Positions 1 to 64,000 of a DNA stretch of 64,000 nt are shown here, piece by piece; position 1 is the first letter of the stretch; every line of letters begins with the position of its first letter. Origin of the DNA: Buxus sempervirens (lineage: Eukaryota > Streptophyta > Magnoliopsida > Buxales > Buxaceae); NCBI GenBank assembly GCA_947561395.2, contig OX387194.1, positions 10,216,048 to 10,280,047 of the forward strand. Reading direction: 5' to 3'. Below the pieces are notes generated by a model. The model searched no databases and was not told where the DNA came from. It was given only the letters and a program-made list of their open reading frames with translations. The translations under genes and the position numbers were made by a program.

Positions 1-2470
1 ACCGTGGAGAAAATACGGGCACTTGTAAAATAATGTAAAATTTGTATTTTCTTGGTTCGGTTGGACCTGATCCGGTCTAAGCCGGCTTGAACCATCCCCT
101 TAATAATTTTTGGGCTTTCTTAAGCCCATTTTTGGACTTTGGGCCTAGACAGGCCCATCAAGACCCCCTTGGCCCACTTGTGGGGCCCATCTCAGACTGG
201 CCCAAACCCGGCCCGTTTTCAATAAAATGGGCCCGGGCCACTAGACTTTGGCTAATGGGCCCATTCCAAGCCCACTAAGCCCAAACTAAAATTGTAAATA
301 TATAAAACTTAATAAAATAACCAAATGGGTTACCCAATAACCCAACTGGGCCCAAGGCCCAACCATGGCAATCCACGGGTCTTCCAACGGGACCCGGGTC
401 CGACCCACTTCACTTAAATAAAAAGATAAAATCAAATAAAAGGGACCACACCTTCAGAGGGCCCCGTCAGACTTAACAAGATAGCATGCTGGTCTAGGAA
501 GGGTGAAGTTGACTCAGAAACCAGGGAGACCCGAGGGACCCGTCAAAACCGACGGGGCGGACCGGGGTGTCTTTAGGACTTCCCCGGATCGTAACTGAGG
601 ACTTAGCTAGATCTCTAAAAAGCCGCAGACCAGACTTAGACCCGATTAGGGCAAAACCGTGTCTGCCTGCACTCTCAGGCAGTGGCGACTCTGAAAATCC
701 CGAGGCACGCACCGAAGGTGCGCCCGGTGTGCGATCTAGTATCCGGTTTTAGGTGCGCACAGTTTGGTTTCTGTTTCAAGCTTCTCTTTCAAGGAGCATG
801 TTCCTTGGCCCCCCATCCAATGTACCCCGTGATAAATCCCCCAGATTCCCTTCTCGATTACTTTACTTGTTAAGTTATGTTTTGTTATTGCTAGCTGCAG
901 ACTTTACTTGTGTGTTGGTTGAGGTCATAGCATGCTCCATGACCCCCTTTTTCCTCCAAAATTGCTGTTTTCCTTTCCATATCATGATAAGCATGTGCTG
1001 AGTGCGTATGGAGTTCATGTCCCAGTTGTTATATTTTGTGTTATGGGCATAAGCATGATCCCCTTCCCCACTGTCATGCCTTTCCCCCATCTTGCCTTGC
1101 TAGATAAACCCAGAAAAGTGAAGCCTAGGGAGGTTTCCCTCCAACCTGAACCCCTGTGGACCCATCCAAGGACCCATACAGCCCACAGCAGCCTCCTGGG
1201 AACCTCCAGAAACCATCCCGAATGGCAGAATCACCAAAAAGGGCCATTTCAGGGTGATCCGGCAACTCAGGCCGGATCACTTGAAGCCCTAGTATATCCG
1301 GTCACCAAGGCCGGATAACCCACAGGCCTAGTGTATCCGGCTACTCTGGCCGGATCACCTGAAGACCCTGTGTATCCGGCCTGAGTTGCCGGATACACAC
1401 AGAAGCATGTTTTTTGTATATTATTGATCCTTTGCCGAATTTTGAATGATTTGGAGCTAAACCAACTGAACCAACAGGGTTTCCGGACCACCCGGAAACC
1501 CAATAAGGGACTTGGACCAACCGGTCCAACCAGGCACACTCGTGGGCCTTCCAACAGGGCCCACCAAGCCCAATGAACCAAATGCATGTTAATTAAGCAA
1601 CCTAAGTGAAATGAACCGATTGAACCGGGCGGGCCAAGCCCAATGCGGCCCACCCATACCTTGATGTGAATGTATGGAATGCATAAAATGCCTGGTTTGG
1701 CCGAGACCATGGGCCAGGGCCTGTCGGGCCCGATAAAGCCCACTAAGTGAACCAAGTTAGGGTGCAAGCCCTAATTTCCAAGGAACCGGGCTTTCAAAGC
1801 CCAAAGCCGGGATCATGGGCCCCAAGCTCAATGACCAGTCCACTTTGGCTCAAATGTAAACAAGATAAGTCTAAAACACCCTTGGCCACCATGTGGGCCC
1901 ACCTAAGGGGCCCACAGACCCATCCGACCCACTTTTGCATGAAAACAACTTAATAATCCGAATCTAAACCTAAAGCAAAATCAATTCACTAACCAAAGCC
2001 CACAGGGCCTCTCAGGGTTAGGCTGAGGCCCACCAAGGGTACATGGGCCTACCTAGGCCCGACAAAGACACCGTGGGCCTTCCAACGGGGCCCACCCAAT
2101 CAGACCCATATCACTTAAGTAAGAAGAGATAAAATCAACTAAAGGGACCCACACCATTCAGGTGGTCCCACCAAGACTTAACCAAATTGCATGCGGGATT
2201 AGGAATCGGGTGAGAACCAAAATAGATAAAGCTGACTCAAAACAGGGAATCCACGGGACCCGTCATCCGACGGGGTGGATTGGGGTGTCTACGGACTTCC
2301 CCAGCCCACAACCGAGAACCAAGACTTAGAATCTCAAGCCGCAGACCAAAGAGCCCTAAATAGACAAGATTATGCACCTAGGTGTCCGCCTGCACCCCAT
2401 CAGGCGGTGGCGACTCCGAATTACCCCGTGCCGCGTTTCCCACGCGCGCACATTATCAAGTACACTTAAT
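1..2470. repeat. GC-rich decayed retroelement DNA with two diverged direct copies
   Basis: No credible gene is present. Blocks at about 380-760 and 2075-2470 are diverged direct repeats, offset by about 1.7 kb. They share GGGACCCGTC, a GGGGTGTCT module, AGCCGCAGACC and a TGCCTGCAC..GGCAGTGGCGACTC module. GGCGACTC also occurs in the LTR ends and primer-binding site of the retroelements elsewhere in the window, which suggests Tat/Ogre-like retroelement remnants. The stretches 120-380 and 1490-2130 are extremely rich in GGGCC/GGCCC. A palindrome array lies at 1255-1396. LTR boundaries could not be fixed. Confidence 0.5.
1255..1396. repeat. Array of four CCGG palindromes, exact 39-bp period
   Basis: Four 25-bp units begin at 1255, 1294, 1333 and 1372. 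Each has an 8-bp arm, a 9-nt loop and an 8-bp arm. The arms are TGATCCGG/CCGGATCA, ATATCCGG/CCGGATAA, GTATCCGG/CCGGATCA and GTATCCGG/CCGGATAC. The loop of unit 4 (CCTGAGTTG) is the reverse complement of the loop of unit 1. The flank (AAAGGGCCATTTC on the left) matches, in reverse complement, the flank of the leader array at 59983-60124, so this is the same module in the opposite orientation. Confidence 0.85.
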
Positions 2471-3358: not shown

Positions 3359-3425
3359 TATTGCCTGTGCAGAAACAGGTCAAAACTGTTAAAAATTGGT
3401 AAAACCTGTCATGCCCACATTTTTA

Positions 3426-3517
3426 ATGCAAACTAGTGGTGAACGCATTTAATATGCGGTCATGCCTTGACCGCATTTTAAATACGGTCAAGGCACGACC
3501 GCATTTTAAATGCGGTC
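3426..3517. repeat. Palindrome array, 28-bp period (ATGCGGTC arms)
   Basis: Units start at 3426, 3454, 3482 and 3510, exactly 28 bp apart. Clear units are 3454-3476 (ATGCGGTC, 7-nt loop, GACCGCAT) and 3482-3504 (ATACGGTC, 7-nt loop, GACCGCAT). The first unit keeps a good right arm (GAACGCAT) and a decayed left arm, and the last keeps only its left arm. The array ends about 200 bp upstream of the TATA-like box. Confidence 0.8.
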
Positions 3518-23520: not shown

Positions 23521-23639
23521 GAATAAACAGGCTTTGCCCGTATTTCCTTCACGGGCCCATCGCGCCCGAAAATTATATACGGTCAGGCGCGCCCGTAGTA
23601 ACAATACGGTTTCCGTTGGACCGTAAATCATTTACGGTC
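23521..23639. repeat. Palindrome array, 28/27/28-bp period (GCCCG / ACGGT arms)
   Basis: Units start at 23549, 23577, 23604 and 23632, with an extra right arm (GCCCGTAT) at 23536 that fits a decayed unit starting 23521. Example: TCACGGGC, 7-nt loop, GCCCGAAA. One unit has a 6-nt loop, which explains the single 27-bp step. Palindromes overlap, e.g. GACCGTAAA-TCA-TTTACGGTC at 23619-23639. Confidence 0.7.
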
Positions 23640-42599: not shown

Positions 42600-42813
42600 G
42601 GCAAGGCCAAGGGCAATAAAGTCCCAAGGGTAGACACAAAAGTGTGTCTAAATCCTTCCAACTCAAGTCTAAGGCATGAATTGGAGGAATTTGATAAATT
42701 TCGGAGGCCAATTTGGGGAATTCAGATTTCCCAAAGAGAGGTATAGATGTAAATAAGTGAAAGCTCACAGAGTTTTTCAATTTGAAGCTTTTTCTTCATG
42801 ACCAAAAACACAG

Positions 42814-43000
42814 TTCGGTTATACATAAAATATGTATAACCGAAACATTATTTCGGTCATTAATAAGTTATGCATAACCGAAATTAAATTTTGGTTATAA
42901 ATAAAAAAATCTATGACCGAAATTAAATTTCGGTTATAATAAAAAATCCATGACCGAAATTTCGGTTATAATAAAACACATGAAATTGAGTTTGACCGAA
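42814..43000. repeat. Palindrome array, 38-39-bp period (TTCGGTTAT / ATAACCGAA arms)
   Basis: Units start at 42814, 42852, 42890, 42929 and 42961. The first has perfect 14-bp arms (TTCGGTTATACATA) around a 3-nt loop. The others keep at least 8-9 bp arms, e.g. TTCGGTCAT..ATAACCGAA and TTCGGTTAT..ATGACCGAA. The first three steps are 38, 38 and 39 bp; the last is 32. Confidence 0.8.
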
Positions 43001-43078
43001 ATAAGTTTTCGATTCAGGGCAAAAATGACTGTTAGCACAGCTTTTGCATAGCCCTGACCCTTACCTGCACAGGCAATA

Positions 43079-43274: not shown

Positions 43275-43381
43275 CATCATTTAAGTAGTGTCCGTATTGT
43301 ATCTGCGGGCTGGTCACGCCCGAAATTAGTATATGGGCATGCAGCGCCCGTATTAAGAATGCAGGCACCACTTGCCCGCAA
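43275..43381. repeat. Palindrome array, exact 28-bp period (GGGC / GCCCG arms)
   Basis: Units at 43303-43325, 43331-43353 and 43359-43381 (CTGCGGGC/GCCCGAAA, ATATGGGC/GCCCGTAT, ATGCAGGC/GCCCGCAA), each with a 7-nt loop. A lone right arm GTCCGTAT at 43290 fits a decayed unit starting 43275. Confidence 0.8.
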
Positions 43382-43595
43382 GGTATATACGAGCGCGGGG
43401 TTTTTGTGTGAATTTTATCTTTGCTCGATTTCTGAGCCTTATCTACATCCAAATATGTCTCTGGGATATGCGAATAATCTCTTTTATCCGTCTGAATTAT
43501 CCTTGTTGGACATGGATTGGCATTATCCTTGTTTTCAATCCAATCTGGGGGATCATTGTATATCCTTCTGGACTAGCCATACCCCTGGGTTTACC

Positions 43596-43804: not shown

Positions 43805-44743
43805 TGTAACGCCCCGAACCCGGGTCAGTGCAAACCGGCACCCGACCCGAACCCGATTCGCTACTGTAACAACCCAAATTTAGTTCAACAACCAAATCCG
43901 AGGTGTTACTGGCCCATATCAATTACAACATCAATAACATACCAGACCAAAGAAAGCAAATCCAATCCATATTTTAAACTATCAGAGTTGCGGAAACAAG
44001 TATGTGCGGAAGTGTAGATCAAAATCCTCAACTAAGCATAAAGCTTGACCATCAGTCAGTAATATCAAAGTCTGGTTACTATCTCTCTCTCTTATCTCTC
44101 TCATACATCAATCCGTATAAATGATAATAAACCAATCAAAAATGCTAAATCTATAACATCAATCCACCTCAGATGAGATCTGGATAATAATAATCCTCCA
44201 GCGAATACTCGGCTATCTCTCCCTGGAAGTCTAAGAGATCCCCCTCTCGCGTATCAGCTGAAAAAAATGGAATATAAGTAGGGTGAGATACGAATATCTC
44301 AGTAGGTAACACATGCATGATTAAACAGTTAATATAAGCAAAGTAACATTTCATGCACGATTAAGCAACATCGATAAATCAGGCTCGCATAATCATTTAT
44401 ACCAATCATGAACACAAAACAGTTTGATAAACAGTTCTAGAAATGATTTTCAGCAAGTTTTAATATAAGAATTCAATAGCCAAATCAGTAGCATAATCCA
44501 CGCATTGCCAGGATGTACTAAGCAGTCACATCCAACCAATATCCCAATCACATGCATCCCGCACGTGCACAATAATAATAATCATATCAAGTGTTGTGTT
44601 TTCAGTGTCATTGTAGGACTCACAAAGTTAGATAAACCTTTTGAGATGATTCTCAACCAATTGCTATACCACCGTGCGACTTAGGAGCGATGCTACTAAT
44701 GATACTCAAGCCCCATGCAGCGCAGCTTAGACAAGAGCCGTAG
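43805..44743. mobile_element. Partial LTR element beginning TGTAACGCCCCG
   Basis: The sharp junction and the terminus TGTAACGCCCCGAACCCGGG are typical of plant gypsy LTR ends. The element is itself interrupted at 44744 by the full-length retrotransposon, so the remainder should lie beyond the right edge of the window. No coding sequence is visible. Confidence 0.6.
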
Positions 44744-46440
44744 TGTGAGACATGGGAAAAAATCACCGGAGTGATCATCCCTCCGTCAACACACGGGCTC
44801 AACGCAAAAATTGGGAGAGTCGCCACCATTCATGATTTTGGGGTGAGAATGGACACCAAAGATACAAAAGTAGGCAAAAATAGCCAAAAGACAAATTCTA
44901 AGATAAAAATAACCCTACTTGAAAATCAAATCCAGAGATGGGTAAGGGGATTAGATTATGAACAGGGGAAGGTGTTAGGCACCCCCATTCATCCACACGA
45001 AGTGGTTGCCAAGTGTATGCTCATGCTAAAAAGAAAATAAGAAGCTTGCTAAAAATCATGAAAAAGCCTTGAAAAAGGAACAATGTATGATATTTTCACA
45101 TGAAGATCTAAATGGATTTTAGATCCTCGCTTATGTCAATATCACTTCTAGAGTATTTCAAAAGATGGAAATCAAAGTAAAAGTGGCCAAAACCAAGTTG
45201 AGGCAAATCCGGGAATTTTGGTAAAAAGTAAGGTCCTTTGTCTTGAAATCATTCAAATCCAATTTCAAATTGATTCAAACCAACTCTATTTGAAATATTA
45301 TGATAAATAAGGAACTCATGCAAAATCTCAAGTTAATCCGATAAAAATCCTAGGAGTTATGCTCCTTTGAAGTTGCTGCTGGGGATTTTTAAAAGTGGTA
45401 AGTGGGCAACTTTGGAAAATTGTCTAGAAAAATCCACTACACAAAAGTCCACGAAATTTGGTGTGATTGAAGTTTGTATGACCATCTTTCCATAGAAACT
45501 AGCCTCATACAAAAACCCCTTCGGATGTGCCTTGGGTGGTCTCCCGAACAAGCCCCGAAGATCACAGATTTACCCAGAAAAGTGCAAATGAGCAGTTCTG
45601 AGTAAATCGGCTACCAATAATTCAAATGGGATCCAAAAATTATGAAACCAACTGGATTTGAAAATAGACTCAAAAAGGAGTACTCAGAAATAAAAATCAC
45701 TCGAATCGGACTTAAAACGAACACATGGCGGTCCGTCGAAGTGACAAGTTCTGTACTTGAACCTGAACTGTCCACTCAACTTCGACAGAGAGGTGTCAAA
45801 ATCCGCTAGATGAAAATTCATGAAATTTGGTGGACATAAACTAGACAGCCTCACCTTTCCCATGGTTCTAGAATCACCCCAAAATTCATCCGGATGATGA
45901 AGTTACGGGCGTCCGAAGTAAAGGTACAGGTGCTGTCAAGCTAAGCCACTTTTGAAGAAATCCAAGTCCGAAAATTGATAAAAAATGAAATTCGTGCAAG
46001 ATGAACACAAATACTTTAAAATCATCCGAAAGGCATTTCAGAATTGATTGAGGCCGTTTATTTGAGATTTATCACAATAAATGCAATAAACCCCAAATAT
46101 GAGCCTATCCCGCCAAAATAGTGATATGTATGTGCAAGGGTGAAAAACCAAGCAAGATCAATACAACATGCATATAGATTCAACAAAATAGGTTCTAGCA
46201 TAGCCTAGGGTTCCGTTCCATTATCGTTTCCCTCTGTTCTCTTTAAGATAATCAAGGGTACTTTGAATATGGAACGGTTTACAATCAATCAAAAAGGCCT
46301 TATGCTACATAGGTTCTAGCACTAGGGTCAATCCCCAGTCTCGTTTCTCCTAGATCCGCCTTCACGTTTTACGGCTAGGGGAGTCTTGAGATACTTTGAG
46401 CCGGGGGAAGGATTTCCACACATACAAACAAGGCTTTACA

Positions 46441-46515
46441 CTACAGAAAGGTAGAAGAAGAGATCTAGATCTGGTAATGTAAAGACAGAAAATAAAAAGA
46501 AAAGTTGAGGCTTAC
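46441..46515 (-). other. Predicted leader intron in the 3' LTR (75 nt)
   Basis: Donor ACTCAG|GTAAGCC, 109 nt after the TATA box, and acceptor CTTTCTGTAG|TGTAAAGCC. The identical copy at 63326-63400 in the 5' LTR would be the one transcribed in the leader. Confidence 0.6.
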
Positions 46516-46623
46516 CTGAGTTCGGGAGGCGATTCCACAGCGGTTTTCTTCTTCTCTTGGAGTTCTTCTTTGCGAGAATTCAAAACAAGAGTTGTGTGTC
46601 TTTTTGCTCAAGGAGGAGGCTCC

Positions 46624-46631
46624 TATTTATA
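46624..46631 (-). promoter_or_regulatory. TATA box of the 3' LTR
   Basis: TATAAATA on the minus strand, 168 bp downstream (in LTR sense) of the palindrome array. Confidence 0.8.
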
Positions 46632-46798
46632 GGCTAAGGCTAGGGTTAGGGTTGGTGAGAATGGTAGACACAACATAATGTCTATAGCCCACCAACCTTA
46701 ACCCTAAGGCTATTTCCGAGATTTCCCCTCATTTAATGAGGGATATGATGGTAAAAGTGAAAAGCTCTCGGAAAACCCTAATTTTGAGCAAAACTAGC

Positions 46799-46940
46799 GT
46801 ATCCGGCATGTCAGGCCGGATACACAAGTACCTTAATGTATCCGGTCTATGATGCCGGATACACTGAGGTCTACTTGTATCCGGCATTGTCCACCGGATA
46901 CAGAGAAAGACACTTGTATCCGGCCTGAGTTGCCGGATAC
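46799..46940. repeat. Array of four GTATCCGG/CCGGATAC palindromes, exact 39-bp period
   Basis: Units 46799-46823, 46838-46862, 46877-46901 and 46916-46940. All have perfect 8-bp arms and a 9-nt loop. Loops are CATGTCAGG, TCTATGATG, CATTGTCCA and CCTGAGTTG. The three 14-bp spacers are all different in sequence. Confidence 0.95.
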
Positions 46941-46981
46941 AAGGAAAAAAGCCTTTTTTTCGAATTTTAACACAGGCAATA

Positions 46982-47063
46982 CTTATTTACATGTAATATC
47001 ATTTAAGTAAATGTCCTCGTATTTTTTAATCTCCATTTACTTAAGATATTACATGTAAATAAG
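46982..47063. repeat. Conserved U3 hairpin in the 3' LTR
   Basis: Same arms and loop as at 3277-3358 and 43079-43160. Confidence 0.9.
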
Positions 47064-47513
47064 CAAACACCCCCCCCATTTGAATCCATTAAAAATAGTT
47101 CCAGACCCAAATTCCAAGTGAATAAAAAGTTAACTTTCCAGTTCTAGGCAAAATTCCGATTTTTCAGGTCTGGAAAAAAGGTTCAATATGTTAAAACCAA
47201 GGTATTCGCCAAGATTTAAAATCTCAAAAAATTCTTTTATGCAATAACATGGCTAAAAACCTGATTACCGAGAAAAATTATCTTGAAATCTGGCTTTAAA
47301 AAATATTTCATTTTCTGGGGTCAAAAGTCAACAAAATTCAACCGGAAAAAGCTTGACTTTGCACAAAAGATTGAATTCGGGCATTTTCCTTTTCCATTTT
47401 GGATTCAAATGGGTTAAGTATCTCAAACCCAATGCAAAGAATTGGAAATTCCAATAAAATATTTCTCTCCTTCAAGATTTATCAAAAATCGTGCAATTTT
47501 GGGGTGTCTACAA

Positions 47514-47525
47514 CTGCCCCTCTTT
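47514..47525 (-). other. Polypurine tract
   Basis: AAAGAGGGGCAG on the minus strand immediately upstream of the 3' LTR, the standard plus-strand priming site. Confidence 0.85.
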
Positions 47526-48317
47526 GCTGGAGTTGTAGCACAATGAACAGTAAAGAATAGACACAACTCAAAATTGAACGGTTGAAAAACAACTCATTAA
47601 TTGAACTTGCTTTGGTCAAACAAATGAGTGATAAAAACATGGATTTGAAGATAGCCAATGAAACCCCTGCTGTGTATAGTCTGACGGGGTGGCGTCTCTT
47701 CCTTATCTCAGATTTCTTTGAGCTCTCGTGGCTATGAAAAGAAATCTGAGACAAGCAAATTTTGAAAAGAATGTGGATTTAAAATTGACCTCTGCAAACT
47801 CAATTGCTTTTGATGTTTTTCAACAATAAGGAAGGAAATATTTTATTGAATTTTCCTGATTGATTTTCTTAGTTGATTTACCTGGGTGCCATTTGATGCC
47901 CAAACCTGTGCTTGAATATTCTGCAACTTGCTTTTGCTTTTTCATCTTCTTGCTCTCTCAATAAGGATGTATGTGCCATTGCTGCCCATAACCTGCCTTC
48001 ATTCTTTTCAACTGCCCAAGTGAATGGCTCTTCTTGACTGATGGATTTGAAAATCCTGATCTGTTGATCTAACCTCATGCCCATGATCTCTCATTCATGC
48101 CTTCTTACTGCTCCAGTAAAATCCTTCTTCAGAATTTGAAACCTTTGTTTAAAGGAGAAAACATGCAACTGCTTCAAAGCTTCTTCTTTTTTTTCTTTCA
48201 AATCCGAAGACTAAGGCCTGACTGCTTCTTCCAGATGCTGTAATTTATTTCAATGAAAACCCAGAGGGAAAGGCACTGAGCATGCCTCGGTTTTGATTGC
48301 TTGAAGTAGTATTTTCC
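47526..48317. other. 3' untranslated region of the retrotransposon
   Basis: Between PPT and the pyrimidine tract. Two minus-strand open frames (47482-47754, 47878-48084) lack family features. Confidence 0.5.
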
Positions 48318-48495
48318 CCTCAGCAAAGATGATCCTCTTTCTTCTTTTTTTCTTTTCCTTTTTCTTCTTTTTTTTTTCTTTTCTTTTCTCTTTTTTTTTT
48401 CTCTCTTTTTTTTTCCTTTTTTTCTTTTTTTCTTTTTCCTTTTTTTTTTTTTGCTTTTTTTTTTTTTTACAATATACTGAAATATCCCTTCTCCT
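48318..48495 (+). promoter_or_regulatory. Long pyrimidine tract ending in a 3' splice-site-like CAG
   Basis: About 150 bp almost wholly T/C, then TTCTCCTTTGCAG directly before the antisense ORF. It looks like a polypyrimidine tract and acceptor for an antisense transcript. Confidence 0.5.
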
Positions 48496-49386
48496 TTGCA
48501 GCTTTGGTTACTTGATCATCTAAGTCAGATTGAAGAAATCAATCGACACTTCTTCCCAAGTTTGAAGGTCCCCATCTTGATGAGCAACCGGGGGTGCCCC
48601 GATATTCCAGGGGGCAAACAGGGCTGGTTTACTTTCTTGGGCTCACTTCAGGAGGACCAGGTGAGATGGCCTGGTACTTATCAGCCCAATGCAGCGACAG
48701 TGATTAGCTTCCGTGACCGCAAATTTTTGATTCTGGCTAGCCTGAGGCATGCAGTGCTTTATCTTCCTCTGCGGGTCCTTCGTCAGTTCCGTGCAACCCA
48801 GGGGATTATCATCCCATGTGGATATGAGGATCGTCTTGGGCCCCTTTCGATGAAGCTGAATGCCTGGTTGATGAAGGAGTGGTCCTATGTCCGCTTTATG
48901 CATAGTCCAGTCTTCTCAGAAGCCCATGTGAAGGATTATCTCTTCTGGATCAAGGAACAGATACAGACCCAGGCCCCGGTACCCGAAGATCCTCCTGTAG
49001 TCTTGGCTCCCACCTATGAGGACATTCTAGAGTCTGAGCGGGCTTCTCATAAGCGGCTTCAGCAGATATGGGTACGGGAGGCCCAGGAGCTCAGGATACA
49101 GGGCGCTTATCTAGAGAGGCAGCTTGAGGAGCAGATCTCACGCCGTATTGCCGTGGAAGAGAAGCTGGAGGAGCAGAGGCAGGCCCGTTGCTTCGAGGTC
49201 CATATGATCCGGCAGAAGTACCAGGCTACTTTGGCCAGCCTCAGGAGTATGAGGATCAAGCAGGCCCTTTCAGATGAGGTCATTTCCTTCCTGAGTGATC
49301 CCGCTGCAGAGGGGGCTTCAGGAGTTATTGCAGCTCAGGCAGCTCGGATTCGGGAGCTTGAGGAGCGGCTAGGAGACAGAGACTAG
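48496..49386 (+). CDS. Antisense extra ORF in the retrotransposon 3' region (296 codons)
   Basis: It runs opposite to gag-pol between integrase and the 3' LTR, the place where Tat-lineage elements carry an additional antisense ORF. The N-terminal half (LWLLDHLSQIEEI, RDRKFLILASLRHAVLYLP, CGYEDRLGPLSMKLNAW) resembles the plant mobile domain type proteins encoded there, by recollection. The C-terminal half from about residue 175 is a charged coiled coil rich in E, R and Q. There is no good ATG at the start: the frame opens right after a TTTGCAG acceptor, so an upstream exon or an internal ATG (e.g. before SNRGCPDIPG) may be used. It is free of stops for 296 codons, so decay is not evident. Role unknown. 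Confidence 0.65.
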   Translation: MQLWLLDHLSQIEEINRHFFPSLKVPILMSNRGCPDIPGGKQGWFTFLGSLQEDQVRWPGTYQPNAATVISFRDRKFLILASLRHAVLYLPLRVLRQFRATQGIIIPCGYEDRLGPLSMKLNAWLMKEWSYVRFMHSPVFSEAHVKDYLFWIKEQIQTQAPVPEDPPVVLAPTYEDILESERASHKRLQQIWVREAQELRIQGAYLERQLEEQISRRIAVEEKLEEQRQARCFEVHMIRQKYQATLASLRSMRIKQALSDEVISFLSDPAAEGASGVIAAQAARIRELEERLGDRD

Positions 49387-50364: not shown

Positions 50365-51200
50365 TCAGGAAAATCTGACCCATCCATTTCTGCTAAGATG
50401 AGTGCACCCCCCTGACAGGACTTTCTTGACGACATATGGGCCTTCCCAATTGGGCTTGAACTTACCACGAGGATCTTCCAAAAATGGTAAGATTTTCTTT
50501 AGCACTAAGTTTCCTTCTTGGAAAGTTCTGGGCCTCACTTTCTTATTGTAAGCCCGGGCCATTCTCTTCTGGTACAACTGTCCATGGCAAAGTGCTTTCA
50601 ACCGCTTTTCTTCTATCAGGTTAAGTTGATCATGTCTTGACTGTATCCATTCAGCTTCTTCTAGTTCTGCTTCCATGAGCACTCGGAGTGAGGGGATCTC
50701 TACTTCTACGGGCAAGACTGCTTCCATCCCATAGACTAGGGAGTACGGGGTTGCCCCAGTTGAAGTCCGGATCGAGGTTCTGTAGGCATGTAGAGCAAGT
50801 GGTAGCATTTCATGCCAATCTTTGTAACTTACTACCATCTTCTGAATGATTTTCTTTATGTTCTTGTTTGCTGCTTCCACTGCCCCATTCATCTTTGGCC
50901 TGTATGGAGCTGACTTATGGTGGGTGATCTGAAACTGCTCACACATTTTCTTCATGTCCTTGTTCTTAATATTTGAAGCATTGTCTGATACTATGGCACT
51001 TGGCAGTCCATAGCGACAAATGATATTGTGCTTCAAAAATTTAATGACATGGTTGCTTGTGATGTTCGCATATGAAGCTGCTTCTACCCACTTAGTGAAA
51101 TAGTCAATCGCCACCAGGATGAATCTATGTCCGTTCGATGCCTTAGGTGAAATCATGCCAATAACATCTATGCCCCACATAGAGAAGGGCCATGGGGATG
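50365..51200 (-). pseudogene. Integrase catalytic core and C-terminal domain (frame-shifted from pol)
   Basis: Starts within the conserved PWPFSMWGIDVIG segment. It shows the DDE triad: D in WGIDVIG, D in VSDNASN, E in NGAVEAANK, followed by ALHAYRTS, ATPYSLVYG and a GPY-type module (NWEGPYVVKKV). The usual G of the TDNG motif is A here. It is one base out of frame with the RT frame; the shift lies near 51200-51212. A second slip in a run of six C (50407-50412) ends the frame early, and the following bases in another frame look like the normal integrase tail. Confidence 0.88.
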
Positions 51201-53912
51201 TCAGTTGTGTAACTCACCCGGGGGTGCATGCTTGTTATCTGCATATATCTGACATTGGTGGCACCTCCTGACATGTACACAGCAATCATGCTCCATGGTC
51301 GTCCAGTAGTATCCCAGCCTCAGGATCTTCTTAGCCAGCATGTGTCCACTCATATGGGGCCCAAAGACTCCTCCATGTACAGTCTCGATCAGCCTTTCTG
51401 ATTCAGCCTTGGCAACACATCTTAGCAGAATATCGTTATGCGACCTCTTGTACACATGTCCACCACTTAGTAGAAATTGACCAGCCAATCTCTGTATTGT
51501 CCTCTTCTCAGTAGCAGTGGCATTTTCTGGCAGACTCCGATTGTTCAAGAAATTCTTGATATCTTGAAACCATGGTGCTTCTTCTTCTGGTGCTCCCTCT
51601 AGAACGAGACAGTAAGCCGGTTCATCTCGGACCTCAATTTCCAGTGGTCTGATGTCTACTCCTTCTGGTATGCTGACCATTGAAGCTAATGTTGCTAGAG
51701 CATCCGCAAACTGATTTTTGGCCCTTGGCATATAGTTGAAGGAAATTCGAGTGAAATTTGTGCTTATTTCTTCCAAATACTGGTGATAGGGGATCAATTT
51801 GTGATCCTTGGTTTTCCATTCACCAGTTGTTTGAAAGATGATAAGACTCGAATCCCCGTATACGTCAAGTTCCTCTACTCCATGATCCATGGCTGCTTGC
51901 AATCCAATTATGCATGCCTCATATTCTGCTATGTTATTGGTGCACTGGAATCTCAGCTTTACTGCAATTGGGATGTGTGAACCATCTGGTTTAACCAAGA
52001 CTGCCCCTATTCCGTTCCCATTCATATTGGCGGCCCCATCAAAGAACATCTGCCAAGAACCCTCACTGTCCTCCTCTTCAGTGTACAGAATTGCCTCATC
52101 TGGGAAGTTGGTCTTCAAGGGTTGATATTCTGGCAGAGGATGTGCAGCCAGGTGATCAGCTATGGCTTGACCCTTGATCGCCTTCTGGGTGATGTATGTG
52201 AGGTCAAACTCGGACAATAGTAGTTGCCACTTTGCCGTCCTGCCAGTTAGCGCCGGCTTCTCAAATAAATACTTCAGCGGGTCCATCCGGGATATCAATA
52301 GTGTGGAGTGACTAAGGAAATAATGCCTTAGCCTCTGAGTGGCCCACACTAGAGCACAGCAAGTCTTTTCCAATGGTGTGTATTTGGCTTCATATTCCGT
52401 GAATTTTATACTCAGATAGTAAATGGCCCTTTCCTTTCTACCAGTCTCATCATGTTGCCCTAAGACACATCCCTTCGACGTTTCCAACACTGACAAGTAC
52501 AGGATTAGTGGTCTTCCTGGAGTTGGTGGCACTAGCACCGGCGGGTTCAATAAATACCTCTTTATTGTATCAAATGCCTGCTGGCAGTCCTCATTCCAGA
52601 CCGTAGGGTTATCTTTCCTCAAAAGTTTGAAAATTGGTTCACAGATAGCAGTGAGCTGTGCTATGAACCGGCTTATGTATTGGATTCTTCCAAGAAAACC
52701 CCTGACCTCCTTCTCGGTTCTGGGTGCTGGCATTTCAATTATGGCCTTGGCTTTTGCCGGGTCAATTTCAATTCCTCTTCGGCTCACTATAAACCCCAGT
52801 AACTTCCCTGATGTAGCCCCAAAGACACATTTAGCCGGGTTAAGCCGTAGACTGTACTTCCTGAGCCGATCAAACACTTTCTTCAGATTGATCAAGTGGT
52901 CCTCCTCTTTGCATGATTTGGCAATCATATCGTCCACGTAGACCTCCATCTCCTTATGGATCATGTCATGAAATAGTGCAGTCATGGCCCGCTGGTATGT
53001 TGCCCCAGCGTTTTTAAGCCCAAACGGCATGACCGTGTAGTGGAATGTGCCCCAAGGTGTAATAAATGCCGTTTTCTCTTGATCTTCCTTAGCCATCTTA
53101 ATCTGATTATATCCTGAGAAACCATCCATGAAGGAAAACAGACTATGTACCGCAGTATTATCGACCAGAATGTCGATGTGTGAAAGCGGAAAATCGTCCT
53201 TTGGGCTTGCCTTGTTCAAGTCTCTATAGTCCACGCACATTCGGACCTTCCCGTCCTTCTTTGGTACCGGCACTATGTTTGCGAGCCACTCCGGGTACGT
53301 AGAGACTGCCAAAAATCCAGCTTGGAACTGTTTGACCACTTCATCCTTGACCTTCAGAGTCCACTCAGGTTTCAATCTTCTCAGCTTCTGCTTAATCGGC
53401 TTAACCCCTGGTAAAATTGGCAACTTATGCACCACCATGTCCGTGTCCAACCCCGGCATGTCCCGATACGACCAAGCAAACACATCCTTGTAATCTGCCA
53501 AGAATTGTGACATTTCATTTTTCTGCACATCAGACAAGCATGACCCAATTTTTACAATTTTTGGGTCATCTTTGGTCCCAAGATTTATGGATATGGTCTC
53601 CTTGATATTAGGTTGGACCCCCTTTTCATGACGTTCCAATTGGTATTCAATTTCTTTTGGAACGTCTTCTTCTTCGACCTCGGTCTCTTCTTCGACCCCC
53701 ATGAGATCAAAGTCGAGCTCAAGATCGAAGTCATATTCAACCTGGTCCAATTCGGTCTGATTATATGATTCATAAGTGGTGTGGACCTTTTTGAAAAAAT
53801 TAAATTTTCTAGAAAAAATAGAAAAATCTTTTTGGGTTTTTTGTGGGCCTTCTAAACATAATTCCCCTGAAGACGAAGGCCCATTAGAACCTTCAGGGAA
53901 ATGGCATTCCAC
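51201..53912 (-). CDS. pol: reverse transcriptase, two RNase H domains, integrase zinc finger (903 codons)
   Basis: The long frame opens just after a stop at about 53938. Residues 1-110 are a variable linker. RT spans about 140-400, with catalytic D263 (FMDG) and YVDD at 325-328. The first, gypsy-type RNase H (about 465-590) lacks the usual TDAS aspartate (YLSVLETS instead) and is probably inactive. A second, archaeal-like RNase H (about 618-745) keeps D625, E663, D687 and D737; a degenerate first and intact second domain is the known Tat arrangement. The HHCC finger of integrase follows (VHGG, GPHMSGH, RRCHQC, about 845-890). It then stops by frameshift at 51201. RT-RNaseH has no internal stop. 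Confidence 0.93.
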   Translation of the reverse strand: MECHFPEGSNGPSSSGELCLEGPQKTQKDFSIFSRKFNFFKKVHTTYESYNQTELDQVEYDFDLELDFDLMGVEEETEVEEEDVPKEIEYQLERHEKGVQPNIKETISINLGTKDDPKIVKIGSCLSDVQKNEMSQFLADYKDVFAWSYRDMPGLDTDMVVHKLPILPGVKPIKQKLRRLKPEWTLKVKDEVVKQFQAGFLAVSTYPEWLANIVPVPKKDGKVRMCVDYRDLNKASPKDDFPLSHIDILVDNTAVHSLFSFMDGFSGYNQIKMAKEDQEKTAFITPWGTFHYTVMPFGLKNAGATYQRAMTALFHDMIHKEMEVYVDDMIAKSCKEEDHLINLKKVFDRLRKYSLRLNPAKCVFGATSGKLLGFIVSRRGIEIDPAKAKAIIEMPAPRTEKEVRGFLGRIQYISRFIAQLTAICEPIFKLLRKDNPTVWNEDCQQAFDTIKRYLLNPPVLVPPTPGRPLILYLSVLETSKGCVLGQHDETGRKERAIYYLSIKFTEYEAKYTPLEKTCCALVWATQRLRHYFLSHSTLLISRMDPLKYLFEKPALTGRTAKWQLLLSEFDLTYITQKAIKGQAIADHLAAHPLPEYQPLKTNFPDEAILYTEEEDSEGSWQMFFDGAANMNGNGIGAVLVKPDGSHIPIAVKLRFQCTNNIAEYEACIIGLQAAMDHGVEELDVYGDSSLIIFQTTGEWKTKDHKLIPYHQYLEEISTNFTRISFNYMPRAKNQFADALATLASMVSIPEGVDIRPLEIEVRDEPAYCLVLEGAPEEEAPWFQDIKNFLNNRSLPENATATEKRTIQRLAGQFLLSGGHVYKRSHNDILLRCVAKAESERLIETVHGGVFGPHMSGHMLAKKILRLGYYWTTMEHDCCVHVRRCHQCQIYADNKHAPPGELHN

Positions 53913-54034
53913 TATTGGAGTTTGTTTTTGGAAGCCGTGTCAGTTTGCCACACAGACGCAGCTTCAAAGGTAAGGGGAGTTTCCTCCCAATTGTTCAGTA
54001 CAAAATTTTGGGGAGCAGGGGAAATAGGGAAAGC

Positions 54035-54244
54035 CTACTCTTCAAACCCAGCATCCGATGCCATCATCACCGGGTGGGTACTGCCCTTTTCTGCTACGGG
54101 GCCCAGTTCAGACATGACCTTGTCTGAAACCTTTACTGCGGCCCAGTCAATGAATGGTAGTTCCATGTCTACCCCTGTCTTTTTGCCCTCAGTCATGGCG
54201 AAGAATGCACCAACATCTTCAGAAAAGTCCACCTGCTGCTTGGG
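54035..54244 (-). pseudogene. gag-pro frame, last segment (after fourth TAG)
   Basis: In the same frame as the protease segment, separated by TAG at 54245-54247 and ending at a fifth TAG at 54035-54037. 69 codons without known domain. Beyond it the reading frame of pol is shifted. Confidence 0.6.
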
Positions 54245-55417
54245 CTATGGTCCAGGCCCATCTGCTGGTCCCAGTATTGGAGATGGGTTGTATGGTTGCA
54301 AGGCCGAAACAACGGGCTTTTGAAATGGGTTGACATTGTAGTAGAGAGGTTTTGATTGGTCCATAGGAGGAGAAATTTGGATTATATAGGAGGGTTTTGG
54401 GAAGTTCACCCTCAAATGGGGGAGTTTTCCTCTGCTTCTGCTCTCTCCTTCTTCGTGCTTCATTCTCCTCCAACCTCTGGGCTTGAAGCCCAACCCTACC
54501 CTTGGGACTAGTTTCTTAGCCGTGATTGGCTCCACCATACCCTGCAGATTGATCCCCAAGCCTTTCCCTGGGTGAAAGTGGTATTTCTCTATCACTTTCT
54601 TGACCATCTTTTCTGCAGTGGTCCCCTTTTCCTTCTTTTTATCACACCCCCCAGGTATGTAATTTACCGCCTCAAATTGAAATGATTGGAATGCAATCTT
54701 GTCGACAGTTAGGTCCACATTGATCAAGGGTACATCAGGTGACACGATGGGCGGCACCAAGTTTTCGGCTAGGACTGTTATCACCCTTTGCCCTCTTATA
54801 TATTTCACCCTCTGGTGGAGCGTGGATGGTATTGCCCTAGCCGAATGTATCCACGGCCTTCCTAGGAGCAGATTGAATGCTGCGGGTATATCCATCACTT
54901 CAAATGTGATGTTAAAGATATTCGGCCCAATTGTGACCGGCAGTTCAATCTCTCCTAGGGAGTGGGTCTTGGAGCTATCAAAAGCCCTTACTATCCGCCC
55001 ATTTTGTTTGATCCTTGACTGGTCCAGACCCAGCTTGGTAAAAGTGATTAACGGGCAAACGTTTAATGCCGACCCGTTGTCAATTAAAACCCGTGCAACC
55101 ATGCAGCCCTTACAAAGCACAGTGATGTGCAAAGGGTCCACATGATAACACCCACCTGGGCTGATCTCACCCTCTGAGAAACTTATCACATTATGTGACA
55201 AGATTTGACCAACCATTTTACCAAGCTGGTCTGAATCGATGGTCTGGGATACGTGTGCACTCTGTAGCACCCTTAACAATGCATCCCTATGCTTTTCGGA
55301 ATTCAGCAAAAGACCCAGTATTGAAATCTGGGCCGGGACCTTGTTTAGCTGATCCACAAGATTGAATTCACTCTTTTTTATTATTTTTATGAGGTCAGCT
55401 GCCTCATTTTCTGCACC
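54245..55417 (-). pseudogene. Protease domain and G-patch-like region
   Basis: Aspartic protease with the Tat-style active site LIDNGSALNV and the downstream FNLLLGRPWIH motif. A glycine-rich segment (FHPGKGLGINLQG) resembling a G-patch follows, then a proline-rich tail. It is open for 390 codons and bounded by TAG at both ends (55418-55420 and 54245-54247), in frame with gag. The protease would mature the polyprotein. Confidence 0.85.
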
Positions 55418-56185
55418 CTAGAGGGTGTCTTCTCCCACTTTATTTTTTCCTTTTTGTTTTCTTTTTTCATTTTCTTTTTCTATTTTTTCTTTTTCTGCTT
55501 CTGTCTCCTTTTCTTTCTCTTCACCCCCTGCACATCTCCCCGACCTCGTCATGAGGTTCACCTCCTCCTGGTTCGGGTTTCTAACCGCTGGAACCGTAGC
55601 CGTGATTCCCTCGCTGTAATTCCATGATACAGCGGCCTCTGAATAGGCTAATTTAGGGATGTTAACCACTAGTGGCTGGAGTTTGGACCGGGATGTATGG
55701 GCCGGTTTAGGGATAGTATGGGCTGGCTGCACATTTACAACCAAGGGTTGAAGTTTGGATTTGGTGGGGACAGAAGAAGTGATGGAAGCAGTGGTAGGGT
55801 CAAGATTGATGACCAGTGGAGCCTTAGACGGCTTGGATGGGGAATAAGTGGGTGGATTGCAATTGAAGACCAATGCAGGCCTTGCAATATTCATCTGGGC
55901 CATGAGTGAAGAGACCCGGTTTAGAGAGGAACTTATGTCCTCAGCAGCAAGATTGTTTTTTTGGGAGACCATGTTGATCTCTTCTTCTTCCTCTTCTAGG
56001 AAAAATCGGACCTGGACTGTAGTCCCCACAGGTGCTATGAGCTGTGATGGGTCAAAGGCCCTTCTGGTGGTGGATATGGCTGTGATGGAGTTGGATGGGC
56101 CTGCCTCATTGTGGTACGGCAGAGGGTTCTGCCCAATATCATTTCCCGACGGGGCGGGTGCAGCAGTGTTAAAGACCAAGGCCTT
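55418..56185 (-). pseudogene. gag-protease linker segment
   Basis: 255 codons in the gag frame after the second TAG. Low-complexity proline/serine/lysine-rich sequence with three similar repeats (PLVVNxxPxHT type) and a charged C-terminus (KEKETEAEKEKIEKENEKR). No enzyme domain. It is expected to be part of the gag-pro polyprotein. Confidence 0.7.
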
Positions 56186-57277
56186 CTAGTCCAACAGGTC
56201 CTGGACCGCATGCTTCAATACCCAGCAGTTATCAGTAGAATGCCCCGGTGCACCCATGTGGAAATCACAGCTGACCGATGTGTCAAAATTTCTCCCCTTT
56301 GGGGCATTTGGGTTAGGCTCCTTCAGAGTCAAGTATTCCCCTTTTAGCAGGGTTGGCAGTAGTTGGGACAGCGATATTGGGAGAGGAGTAAAGACTCGGT
56401 TCTTTCTTGCTGCGAACCAGGCATCCCGCTCCTCCTTAGAAAAAGTCCTCCTTGTGTTAGCTGGCACAGAGGGAGGGAAGTTGACATTCAGCGGGGGCTG
56501 GTACGACTGCTGGGCCTGCTGGGCCTGTTGGGGTGCCGAGATGTTGACGTGCAGTGGCTTCTTGGCTGGAGGAGCCTGGACCAGGTTCACCTCTCCTTCT
56601 TTTCGGGCCCCTGTCTTCTTGAACCCAGTTCCCTTCTTTTGGGCCATGGAGGCCGAGGGATCAGACTGCCCAGTCAAAGTAGAGTAGTCCATCAACCGTC
56701 CTGACCTGACCCCTTCTTCAATCCGGTCCGCCACCTGTACCAGGGCAGCAAAATTGGTGGTGATCTGAGCCACCAGATGGTTGTAAAAGGGCTGCCCCAG
56801 TGTGCCCATAAATGTGGAGATCATCTCCGGCTCTTGCATAGGTGGCCTGACCTGGGAGGCGGCCTCTCTCCATCTCTTGGCGTACTGCCGTACCGGTTCA
56901 TCTTTCCCCCTGGTCATCCTCATCATGTCGTACCGATCTGGCACAATCTCCGAGTTGAACTTGTACTGGTCCAAGAAGGCGTCGGCTAGGTCCTTCCACC
57001 TCCTGATCCTTCCATGGTCCATTGTAGCGAACCACCGAAGGGCTGACCCGGTCAGACTCCTCTGGAAGAGCTGGATCAGTATGCCATCATCCCGGCCAAA
57101 CTGGCACAGGGCCCCGCAGTATAATTTGAGATGGCTCAATGGGCAGCCCGTGCCATCAAATTTATCGAAGTCTGGGCACCTGAACTTAGCCGGTAGACAG
57201 ACGTCCGGGTACATGCACAGGTCCTCGAAGGTGGTGCCTGCATGGCTGCCTCCCCCCTTCACTTCCTTCAACTCTGC
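56186..57277 (-). pseudogene. gag core (capsid and zinc-knuckle-like motif)
   Basis: A Retrotrans_gag-type capsid with FRCPDFDKFDG, ALRWFATMD, WKDLADAFLDQYKF and MRMTRGKDEPVRQYAKRW. A Q/P-rich region follows, then a C-terminal CDFHMGAPGHSTDNCW, a Tat-type single zinc knuckle variant. It is preceded and followed by in-frame TAG codons (57278-57280 and 56186-56188). Role: particle assembly and RNA packaging. Confidence 0.88.
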
Positions 57278-57619
57278 CTAGATCCTCTCTATCCTGAGCA
57301 GCATTTTCTTTTCCATCTCATCCCTAGCCTTTTCTTTTTCCAGCTCTTTCTCAGACTCTACTGTATTTTCCCTGATCAGAATGGGCTCAGGGACTGGTTC
57401 AGAAATGGGCTCAGGCATGGGCTGAGCCGAAGGCGGTATGTAGGCCTGAGGTGGTGGTGCCTGATGGGAGGTAGAGGCCTGGTTTTGGGCTTGGGCCTGT
57501 TGGGCCTGCGCCGCCAGTAAGTCCCCCAGCATTTTGGCCAGACCGGCCACTTGCTCCTGCAATTGAGTAAAGTCCTGAGCAGGGACAGTAGCTTGGGCTT
57601 GGTTTTCTTCAGTATTCAT
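57278..57619 (-). pseudogene. gag N-terminal segment
   Basis: From ATG at 57617-57619 (MNTEENQAQA) to the first TAG. Q/A/P-rich, then a charged helix (ESEKELEKEKARDEMEKK). The frame is open upstream of that ATG to a TAG at about 57673 and includes VTRSKARAM, a common gag start style, so a non-ATG start is possible. Confidence 0.7.
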
Positions 57620-57892
57620 GGCTCTTGCTTTGGATCTGGTCACGGGAGCAATGACTGCAAATAAGTACACCTAGGTCGTAAGTAAATGTACCTGATGAAA
57701 AATGAATAGAACATGTTAGCTTCAATTTAACTTGAAACACACCCCTATAAATGTATACAAATAGGTCAGGGGAACACCAATCCAGATTTTTCTATTTTTT
57801 TTTATATTTTTTTTTATATTTTTTTTTATTTTATTTTTTTTTTGTTTTTGTTTTTTTTGTTTTTTTTTTTTTTTGTTGTTTTGATTTTGTGC

Positions 57893-59982: not shown

Positions 59983-60124
59983 GTATCCGGTATAATATTC
60001 CGGATAAGAATATGCCTTATTGTATCCGGTCACCATAACCGGATATACGCATATGCCTTTGTATCCGGAAATATATACCGGATATGAACAGAGTTGTTAT
60101 TAACCGGCCTGAGTTACCGGTTAT
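59983..60124. repeat. Leader copy of the four-palindrome array, exact 39-bp period
   Basis: Units 59983-60007, 60022-60046, 60061-60085 and 60100-60124. All have 9-nt loops. Arms GTATCCGG/CCGGATAA, GTATCCGG/CCGGATAT (twice), and in unit 4 TTAACCGG/CCGGTTAT, a compensatory pair change. The unit 4 loop CCTGAGTTA matches that of the LTR array. Confidence 0.92.
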
Positions 60125-61624: not shown

Positions 61625-63508
61625 GTTGTGAGACATGGGAAAAAATCACCGGAGTGATCATCCCTCCGTCAACACACGGGCTCAACGCAAAAATTGGGAG
61701 AGTCGCCACCATTCATGATTTTGGGGTGAGAATGGACACCAAAGATACAAAAGTAGGCAAAAAATAGCCAAAAGACAAATTCTAAGATAAAAATAACCCT
61801 ACTTGAAAATCAAATCCAGAGATGGGTAAGGGGATTAGATTATGAACAGGGGAAGGTGTTAGGCACCCCCATTCATCCACACGAAGTGGTTTCCAAGTGT
61901 ATGCTCATGCTAAAAAGAAAATAAGAAGCTTGCTAAAAATCATGAAAAAGCCTTGAAAAAGGAACAATGTATAATATTTACACATGAAGATCTAAATGGA
62001 TTTTAGATCCTCGCTTATGTCAATATCACTTCTAGAGTATTTCAAAAGATGGAAATCAAAGTAAAAGTGGCCAAAACCAAGTTGAGGCAAATCCGGGAAT
62101 TTTGGTAAAAAGTAAGGTCCTTTGTCTTGAAATCATTCAAATCCAATTTCAAATTGATTCAAACCAACTCTATTTGAAATATTATGATAAATAAGGAACT
62201 CATGCAAAATCTCAAGTTAATCCGATAAAAATCCTAGGAGTTATGCTCCTTTGAAGTTGCTGCTGGGGATTTTAAAAAGTGGTAAGTGGGCAACTTTGGA
62301 AAATTGTCTAGAAAAATCCACTACACAAAAGTCCACGAAATTTGGTGTGATTGAAGTTTGTATGGCCATCTTTCCATAGAAACTAGCCTCATACAAAAAC
62401 CCCTTCGGATGTGCCTTGGGTGGTCTCCCGAACAAGCCCCGAAGATCACAGATTTACCCAGAAAAGTGCAAATGAGCAGTTCTGAGTAAATCGGCTACCA
62501 ATAATTCAAATGGGATCCAAAAATTATGAAACCAACTGGATTTGAAAATAGACTCAAAAAGGAGTACTCAGAAATAAAAATCACTCGAATCGGACTTAAA
62601 ACGAACACATGGCGGTCCGTCGAAGTGACAAGTTCTGTACTTGAACCTGAACTGTCCACTCAACTTCGACAGAGAGGTGTCAAAAATCCGCTAGATGAAA
62701 ATTCATGAAATTTGGTGGACATAAACTAGACAGCCTCACCTTTCCCATGGTTCTAGAATCACCTCAAAATTCATCCGGATGATGAAGTTACGGGTGTCCG
62801 AAGTAAGGGTACAGGTGCTGTCAAGCTAAGCCACTTTTGAAGAAATCCAAGTCCGAAAATTGATAAAAAATGAAATTCGTGCAAGATGAACACAAATACT
62901 TTAAAATCATCCGAAAGGCATTTCAGAATTGATTGAGGCCGTTTATTTGAGATTTATCACAATAAATGCAATAAACCCCAAATATGAGTCTATCCCGCCA
63001 AAATAGTGATATGTATGTGCAAGGGTGAAAAACCAAGCAAGATCAATACAACATGCATATAGATTCAACAAAATAGGTTCTAGCATAGCCTAGGGTTCCG
63101 TTCCATTATCGTTTCCCTCTGTTCTCTTTAAGATAATCAAGGGTACTTTGAATATGGAACGGTTTACAATCAATCAAAAAGGCCTTATGCTACATAGGTT
63201 CTAGCACTAGGGTCAATCCCCAGTCTCGTTTCTCCTAGATCCGCCTTCACGTTTTACGGCTAGGGGAGTCTTGAGATACTTTGAGCCGGGGGAAGGATTT
63301 CCACACATACAAACAAGGCTTTACACTACAGAAAGGTAGAAGAAGAGATCTAGATCTAGGAATGTAAAGACAGAAAATAAAAAGAAAAGTTGAGGCTTAC
63401 CTGAGTTCGGGAGGCGATTCCACAGCGGTTTTCTTCTTCTCTTGGAGTTCTTCTTTCCGAGAATTCAAAACAAGAGTTGTGTGTCTTTTTGCTCAAGGAG
63501 GAGGCTCC

Positions 63509-63516
63509 TATTTATA
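63509..63516 (-). promoter_or_regulatory. TATA box of the 5' LTR
   Basis: TATAAATA on the minus strand; the probable promoter of the element. Confidence 0.8.
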
Positions 63517-63683
63517 GGCTAAGGCTAGGGTTAGGGTTGGTGAGAATGGTAGACACAACATAATGTCTATAGCCCACCAACCTTAACCCTAAGGCTATTT
63601 CCGAGATTTCCCCTCATTTAATGAGGGATATGATGGTAAAAGTGAAAAGCTCTCGGAAAACCCTAATTTTGAGCAAAACTAGC

Positions 63684-63825
63684 GTATCCGGCATGTCAAG
63701 CCGGATACACAAGTACCTTAATGTATCCGGTCTATGATGCCGGATACACTGAGGTCTACTTGTATCCGGCATTGTCCACCGGATACAAAGAAAGACACTT
63801 GTATCCGGCCTGAGTTGCCGGATAC
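63684..63825. repeat. 39-bp-period palindrome array in the 5' LTR
   Basis: Units at 63684, 63723, 63762 and 63801 (25 bp each). It differs from the 3' LTR copy by one loop base in unit 1 (CATGTCAAG) and a spacer base. Confidence 0.95.
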
Positions 63826-63867
63826 AAGGAAAAAAGCTTTTTTTTTTGAATTTTAACACAGGCAATA

Positions 63868-63949
63868 CTTATTTACATGTAATATCATTTAAGTAAATGT
63901 CCTCGTATTTTTTAATCTCCATTTACTTAAGATATTACATGTAAATAAG
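63868..63949. repeat. Conserved U3 hairpin in the 5' LTR
   Basis: Arms CTTATTTACATGTAATATC and its mirror; same as at 46982-47063. Confidence 0.9.
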
Positions 63950-64000
63950 CAAACACCCCCCCCCCCCCATTTGAATCCATTAAAAATAGTTCCAGACCCA

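Follow-up and report, generated by a model that had tools for sequence, protein, structure and literature searches.

Eight arrays of short dyads in a 64-kb window, the term used here for the whole 64,000-nucleotide stretch that was analysed, follow a single rule, CCG-N11-CGG, and two of them belong to the two LTRs of one element. Judging from the sequence, it is probable (about 0.65) that such an array is a cis-regulatory row in an LTR promoter, composed of sites for a dimeric DNA-binding protein and acting as DNA. A row of sites for a dimeric protein was among three readings offered in a preliminary description of one of these arrays and is the best of the three; nothing seen here would favor the other two, RNA stem-loops and a methylation-sensitive switch, over protein binding.

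The array described first, array A, occupies 46799..46940 (minus strand) in the 3′ LTR of the focal element (44744..47512, minus strand; 2769 bp, TGTAGACACC...CTCACA in sense) and consists of four TATCCG-N11-CGGATA dyads at steps of 39, 39, and 39 bp. Four 25-bp palindromes, 39 bp apart and with perfect arms but differing loops and spacers, had been reported there, and this is borne out to the base: the units start at 46799, 46838, 46877, and 46916, and all of them read GTATCCGG, a 9-nt loop, and CCGGATAC. Over all unit pairs, 96/96 arm positions are identical, compared with 19/54 in loops and 16/42 in spacers. The pattern TATCCGG-N4-14-CCGGATA is matched at 13 places in the window but nowhere in 100 shuffles, which, together with a fold z of -12.6 for the array strand, excludes chance for the focal palindromes. 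Plain recent tandem duplication had been judged an insufficient explanation, and that judgment stands, as the pairing and the spacing persist through drift in loops and spacers. A search with a TATA pattern located the TATA box, CTATAAATAG, at 46623..46632 (minus strand), downstream of the array in sense at a measured distance of 167-168 bp, in agreement with the 168 bp given earlier; a telomere-like TAGGGTTAGGGTT lies near this TATA box at 46640-46660. Pattern search and N11 scan found array A again in the other LTR of the element (5′ in sense; 61627..64000, minus strand, cut by the window end) at 63684..63825 (minus strand). The two LTRs share 98.99% identity across 2374 aligned columns, and the differences inside the array, at 46814 (loop) and 46903 (spacer) with none in 64 arm bases, are too few to prove constraint. 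The placement of array A in the U3 of a young retrotransposon likewise holds, the element being a Ty3/gypsy member of the Tat clade on the minus strand.

Reading frames with Pfam matches to gag, G-patch, RT, RNaseH, a second RNaseH, and integrase lie at 50365..57670 (minus strand), with RVT_1 at positions 225-385, RT_RNaseH at 474-578, RVT_3 at 633-751, Integrase_H2C2 at 844-899, and rve in the next ORF. No protease family was matched in these frames; the G-patch match (PF01585, 1e-05), in an ORF between gag and RT at 54248-55417 (minus strand), sits where the protease was expected. From its position, RVT_3 appears to be the extra RNaseH of Tat type. An extra RNaseH between RH and INT is given for Ogre and Retand in the part of PMC6317226 that was available, and the order RT, RNaseH, second RNaseH, integrase thus places the focal element in the Tat clade, in its Ogre/Retand branch. 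Retand elements, according to the sections of PMC11963269 covered, carry an antisense TRP28 (PF04195) ORF between pol and the 3′ LTR in 97% of clusters and have LTRs of 315-1,194 bp. In the focal element an antisense ORF is present at that place but matches no Pfam family at E values up to 10, and the LTR measures 2769 bp. Ogre elements have an extra ORF upstream of gag and a tRNA-Arg primer site. Between the 5′ LTR and gag of the focal element, sense ORFs of at least 120 codons lie only in or across a 76-bp repeat, and a tRNA scan gave nothing useful; a search of viral contigs gave 0 matches. The 76-bp repeat, present in about 23 tandem copies at 57893-59667 between array B and gag, is a possible satellite seed.

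Beyond the array described first and its copy at 63684, further arrays begin at 59983, 1255, 3415, 42802, 43292, and 23538. Array B (59983..60124, minus strand; four dyads, steps of 39 bp) lies inside the focal element between the 5′ LTR and gag, and its fourth unit has swapped base pairs (TAACCGG/CCGGTTA). Array C (1255..1396, minus strand; four dyads, steps of 39 bp) belongs to another LTR, starting near 2290, and its first unit is TGATCCGG/CCGGATCA. These two were found with the focal palindrome pattern, and arrays D and E by a tandem-repeat scan, a dyad scan, and reading. Array D (3415..3515, plus strand), in an LTR starting at 2829, has four dyads of the TGACCG-N11-CGGTCA type at steps of 28 bp, with a decayed first unit (3415) exposed by the N11 scan. 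Array E (42802..43012, minus strand), in a truncated LTR, is of the form TAACCG/TGACCG-N11-CGGTTA/CGGTCA, with steps of 38, 38, and 39 bp over its first four units and a decayed end unit at 42802 in the four-unit scan; past these come a unit at 42954, shortened to N5, and another at 42996. Array F (43292..43392, plus strand), in an LTR starting at 43217, has four dyads at steps of 28 bp with three right-hand triplets altered, and keeps its steps and most triplets with no strong dyad left in the dyad scan (0 against a shuffle mean of 0.33). Array G (23538..23637, plus strand), in an LTR starting at 23433, has four exact CCG-N11-CGG units at steps of 28, 27, and 28 bp; it was not shown by the earlier scans, was first seen in the N11 count, and was then placed in an LTR with a TATA box 203 bp downstream. 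The 25-bp palindrome was rejected as the recurring unit, CCG-N11-CGG being the unit common to the arrays, and "exactly four units" was rejected as universal, since array E has at least five plus the shortened one.

Two further features of these LTRs were observed. The sequence of the LTR holding array E ends where that holding array F begins, at 43216/43217 and in opposite orientation, as in nested or rearranged LTRs. Many further GGGCC/GGCCC dyads, two of them of the form GTGGGCC-N9-GGCCCAC, lie beside array C at 1489-2084; counting the array, its LTR has 14 dyads over 1341 bp, compared with an average of 0.9 in shuffles.

The gap of 11 stands out in the counts. When CCG-Nk-CGG was counted over the window for k = 0 to 40, N11 gave 29 matches, of which 22 have two or all three of the outer pairs, followed by N37 (28) and N24 (16), with 0-8 at the remaining gaps; CGG-Nk-CCG peaked at N35 (25), N9 (18), and N22 (13). 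The N37 and N24 peaks, like those at N35, N9, and N22, are forced by CCGG repeated at a 39-bp step. The CCGG core of arrays A, B, and C fits CGG-N9-CCG equally well; N11 alone covers all eight arrays. A four-unit scan (steps up to 60, gaps N4-N20, listing threshold 19, maximum 24) gave eight loci that score highest at N11, with steps of 28 or 38-39 bp, namely A (in each LTR of the focal element), B, C, and G at 24, E at 22, F at 21, and D at 20; at threshold 19 it also returned these loci in shifted register with other gaps, along with an extra match at 15786 (score 19, N14, step 53). The number of 80-bp bins with a four-unit array of at least 21/24 is 8 at N11 and 0 at each other gap from N4 to N20. 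None of 200 block-wise dinucleotide shuffles reached 20/24, the highest being 19, and N10 shadows of the 39-bp arrays score 20/24, the same as array D. In a survey of the 32 triplets that contain at least two G/C, the best 15 combinations listed include (TGG,14) with 11 arrays scoring 20/24 or more, (CCA,8) with 9, and (CCA,9) with 8, against 8 for (CCG,11); of the 28 places of the first three, 24 belong to the 76-bp repeat at 57893-59667. The eight arrays all lie within a single 64-kb window of one genome, and most of them are probably kin by descent.

The preliminary description had proposed setting arms against loops and checking the 39-bp period among copies of the family. Among the copies in the window, conservation is higher in arms than in loops and spacers, and three diverged arrays hold a step of precisely 39 bp; as a general property the period fails, with related LTRs using 28 or 38-39 bp. 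The diverged arrays A, B, and C are 47-58% identical in loops, 29-45% in spacers, and 66-78% in outer arm bases. Their CCGG core is identical at 32/32 positions in each of A-B, A-C, and B-C, against 17-21/36 in loops and 12-19/42 in spacers (Fisher, core versus loops and spacers, 8e-9, 3e-9, and 5e-11), a comparison biased by the fact that the three were first seen via a shared ATCCGG core; units B4, C1, and C3 keep the core though they lie outside the original search pattern. At least one change on both sides is seen in three of the eight arm pairs of A, B, and C, which was reached in 7/500 shuffles, and in the same set the observed pairing was reached in 10/500, the pair types in 29/500, and the two-sided cells in 52/500.

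The same coupling extends to 29 units from seven arrays, counted without the 5′-LTR copy of array A (a duplicate) and the E unit at 42954 (CCG-N5-CGG). Offsets 5 and 9 from the dyad center are complementary in 23/29 and 25/29 units (P about 2e-8 and 3e-8 against column make-up), with letters that differ between families, and offsets 4 and 10 pair in 22/29 and 24/29 (P 5e-4 and 2e-4), values that overstate the evidence because the units are related rather than independent. Offsets 12, 13, and 15 pair weakly, and pairing at offsets 1-3, 11, 14, and 16 is not above expectation in the 29 units. Offsets 6-8 are the triplets themselves, with too little variation for a pairing test; these are exact in 49/58 cases. 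The length N11 is constant though its content varies, self-complementarity being extensive in D and lower in A. What stays constant is therefore a CGG half-site at a fixed distance from its mirror image, next to bases that differ from family to family and mostly change in the two halves at once. Origin of the arrays as unrelated inventions was rejected, and D, F, and G look like diverged relatives because their N11 stretches (45-61% identical) and flanks (45-53%) are alike in register. That the arrays of D, F, and G diverged faster than their promoters was not supported by the identity comparison.

A rival account takes the arrays to act as RNA, in which the palindromes could form stem-loops or one long hairpin serving packaging, RNA dimerization, or small-RNA production. 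The genomic RNA contains U3 at its 3′ end and array B nearer its 5′ end, the array strand has a folding energy of -88.3 kcal/mol (z -12.6) with a single nested hairpin that pairs units 1-4 and 2-3, and non-arm complementarity across the whole array is 20/39 in A (P 4e-4) and 18/39 in C (P 3e-3), although array B shows little of it (14/39, P 0.09). In maize, Sirevirus palindromes are hot spots of small RNAs according to the part of PMC10760457 consulted, which cites Bousios 2016. This account is nevertheless unlikely: the CCG-CGG distance is fixed where the loop length of a hairpin may vary, array F keeps its triplets without strong dyads, and no Rfam family reached the gathering score in 44700-64000. 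Moreover, five of the eight arm pairs never change in A, B, and C, so that sequence is kept and not pairing alone. G-U pairs were considered as an RNA signal, with too few changes to tell. A fixed CCG-CGG distance enclosing variable N11 content fits half-site geometry on DNA better than hairpin loops.

The spacing of the dyads falls into two classes, with steps of 39 bp in the focal LTRs, B, and C and 38-39 bp in E, and of 28 bp in D, F, and G (one step of 27 in G). Half-sites in the 28-bp class alternate about every 14 bp, with N11 within dyads and N11, or once N10, between them; in the 39-bp class the inner gap is N11 and the outer gap N22 (N21-22 in E). The classes differ by 10-11 bp, about one helical turn, and neighboring sites may be held at a fixed angular relation. 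The steps themselves are not whole turns (28/10.5 = 2.67, 39/10.5 = 3.71), which counts against the dimer-site reading. The distance from the array end to the C of CTATA is 203 bp in D, F, and G, 202 bp in E, and 167 bp in A, and the stretch between array and TATA in D, E, F, and G is 44-67% identical with 2-22 gap columns. The TATA pattern was drawn up so as to take in CTATAGAT after array D had been read, and CTATAGAT aligned with the other TATA boxes. No TATA-like match to the pattern used was found within 450 bp of arrays B and C, and a role of array B as a second promoter was rejected on that ground.

Another explanation is that the arrays are a functionless side effect, a hairpin-prone palindromic repeat maintained by slippage, gene conversion, and template switching. 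Recombination does take place near the arrays, as A, D, and E keep 93-99% identity up to points 30, 45, and 55 bp short of their arrays, where the likeness breaks off abruptly. In C, the loop of unit 1 is precisely the reverse complement of that of unit 4, suggesting inversion of a unit, and the focal element has its 76-bp repeat array in the 5′ non-coding stretch. Conversion confined to arms across diverged families leaves the fixed N11 and the exact 39-bp steps of A, B, and C unexplained, and the near-constant TATA distance in D, E, F, and G is equally unaccounted for, which makes a mere side effect improbable. The block that ends so abruptly comprises the first approximately 543 bp of the LTR shared by A and D, with A and E matching in its last part; in the focal LTR it spans 46971..47512 (minus strand), is shared with D (507/539) and partly with E (140/142), and ends 30 bp before array A. 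Weak similarity between A and E returns around TATA (68.5% over 108). Because the likeness of A, D, and E stops just before the arrays and that of A and E returns near TATA, the array moves together with the promoter side, and the upstream block was apparently exchanged between families. Near its array-side end, just ahead of the arrays, the block shared by the LTRs of A, D, and E contains an inverted repeat (46982-47063, also at about 43076-43157 and 3278-3359); the copy at 46982-47063 has 19-bp perfect arms extended by the fold, with the look of a foldback or a small-RNA hairpin.

The arrangement is best accommodated by a promoter row of dimer sites. With four units in seven of the eight arrays and more in E, each site would be a CCG-N11-CGG dyad whose two CGG half-sites contact the protein; the bases beside CGG would set a family-specific affinity and change in both halves together, and the 28- or 38/39-bp step would place neighboring dimers for cooperation. 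Lying before TATA, the row is most simply given a transcriptional role, and at about 170-200 bp upstream its most likely task would be the recruitment of an activator, or of an anti-silencing protein, to the retrotransposon promoter. Protein binding, dimerization, cooperation, and activation are what we infer from this layout.

A methylation-sensitive switch, in which methylation of the CG and CHG sites carried by CCG and CGG would control binding at half-sites, is very unlikely as an explanation of its own, and it may instead form a layer of the binding model rather than an exclusive rival. Each intact half-site holds a CG, and of the nine departures from the triplets, six include CG to TG/CA, as expected if copies were methylated; such CpG decay would show only that the copies were methylated at some time.

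A host factor is a more likely binder than an element protein. LOB-domain proteins, which have a preference for CGG, were set aside as candidates, a literature search on them having settled nothing. The product of the antisense ORF between integrase and the 3′ LTR (48481..49386, plus strand; 301 codons stop to stop) is a possible binder, because related Retand ORFs are predicted to bind DNA. The focal element resembles Retand in its Tat clade and in the antisense ORF between pol and 3′ LTR, and the Retand TRP28 ORF has been proposed to bind DNA and regulate (Vicient 2025, PMC11963269, in part); "palindrom" occurs in that paper, as far as covered, only within one reference. The antisense ORF has no homolog in the protein collection searched (0 of 2267 candidates at E 0.001), and its model has a mean pLDDT of 53 and is confident only over about residues 161-240, one long helix, predicted here to be a coiled coil.

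A bolder form of the protein model takes VANDAL elements as its guide. In the sections of PMC5735166 and PMC10398659 consulted, VANC is an element-encoded protein that binds motif arrays and removes silencing, and its targets are arrays of short motifs in noncoding parts, differing between related families. The arrays share with VANC targets their short motifs in noncoding element parts, their family specificity, and their joint evolution, whereas VANDALs are DNA transposons and their motif, YAGTATTAY, stands in one orientation and does not form dyads. By this analogy the arrays could be docking rows for an element-made protein, the antisense ORF product or the like, as a retrotransposon counterpart of VANC, with protein and CCG-N11-CGG flanks co-evolving by family; we regard this as doubtful. 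If true, each family would activate or un-silence only its own copies, and the same half-sites in Sireviruses would point to a regulatory solution shared by Ty1/copia and Ty3/gypsy.

The preliminary description knew of no element with this layout, which no longer holds: the LTRs of Sireviruses (Ty1/copia) carry arrays of palindromic repeated motifs (RM) with a CGG-CCG core upstream of TATA, and env-bearing Sireviruses have a second RM cluster inside the element (Bousios et al. 2010, PMC2829016, in the sections covered). There the RMs are called Sirevirus-specific against the classic Ty1/copia elements compared, and a common binder is not named. The likeness extends to palindromic boxes in the upper LTR before TATA, family-specific flanks, and an internal cluster, with array F fitting by its triplets only. 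The Citrus RM, AATCCGG..CCGGATT, shares arms with array A, and the Osr10/Osr8 RM, CGGTC..GACCG, shares a half-site with arrays D, E, and G. Sirevirus elements have 8-32 RM copies, and the focal element has a comparable number, four in the 3′ LTR plus four internal, equal to the minimum of eight per element given for RMs; the other LTRs belong to elements incomplete in the window. Differences are that Sirevirus RMs are compact, with 4-6 bases between CGG and CCG by our own reading of Table 3, whereas CCG-N11-CGG applies here; that the Tnd-1 RM lacks the CGG-CCG core; that internal copies precede env in Sireviruses but lie upstream of gag here; and that the fixed steps of 28 or 38-39 bp are not described for Sirevirus RMs in the sections of PMC2829016 covered. 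With its Ty3/gypsy rather than Ty1/copia domain order, the focal element would have an array that works like an RM array but falls outside that set.

In the Ty1/copia elements Tnt1 and Retrolyc1, the U3 regulatory regions differ between subfamilies while other parts are alike; we know of no CCG-N11-CGG rule in either. In maize, structured LTR peaks are found in Copia and no obvious peak in Ty3 elements (PMC10760457, in the part consulted). No report of such arrays in Ty3/gypsy elements, or of the N11 rule, was found in the largely open-access literature covered. What began as one odd array thus yields a rule (CCG-N11-CGG, steps of 28 or 38-39 bp, some 170-200 bp ahead of TATA) by which any plant genome can be searched. 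If general, it would mean that CGG dyads serve retrotransposons of two distant superfamilies at the same place in the promoter, would point to a dimeric DNA-binding protein of the plant or the element, and would offer a direct test of how retrotransposon promoters change specificity and escape silencing.

Elsewhere in the window, a long open DUF247 gene (Pfam PF03140, 6.7e-106) lies at 26891-28570 on the minus strand; together with the Tat element it marks the host as a plant. The DUF247 family is linked to self-incompatibility in some plants.
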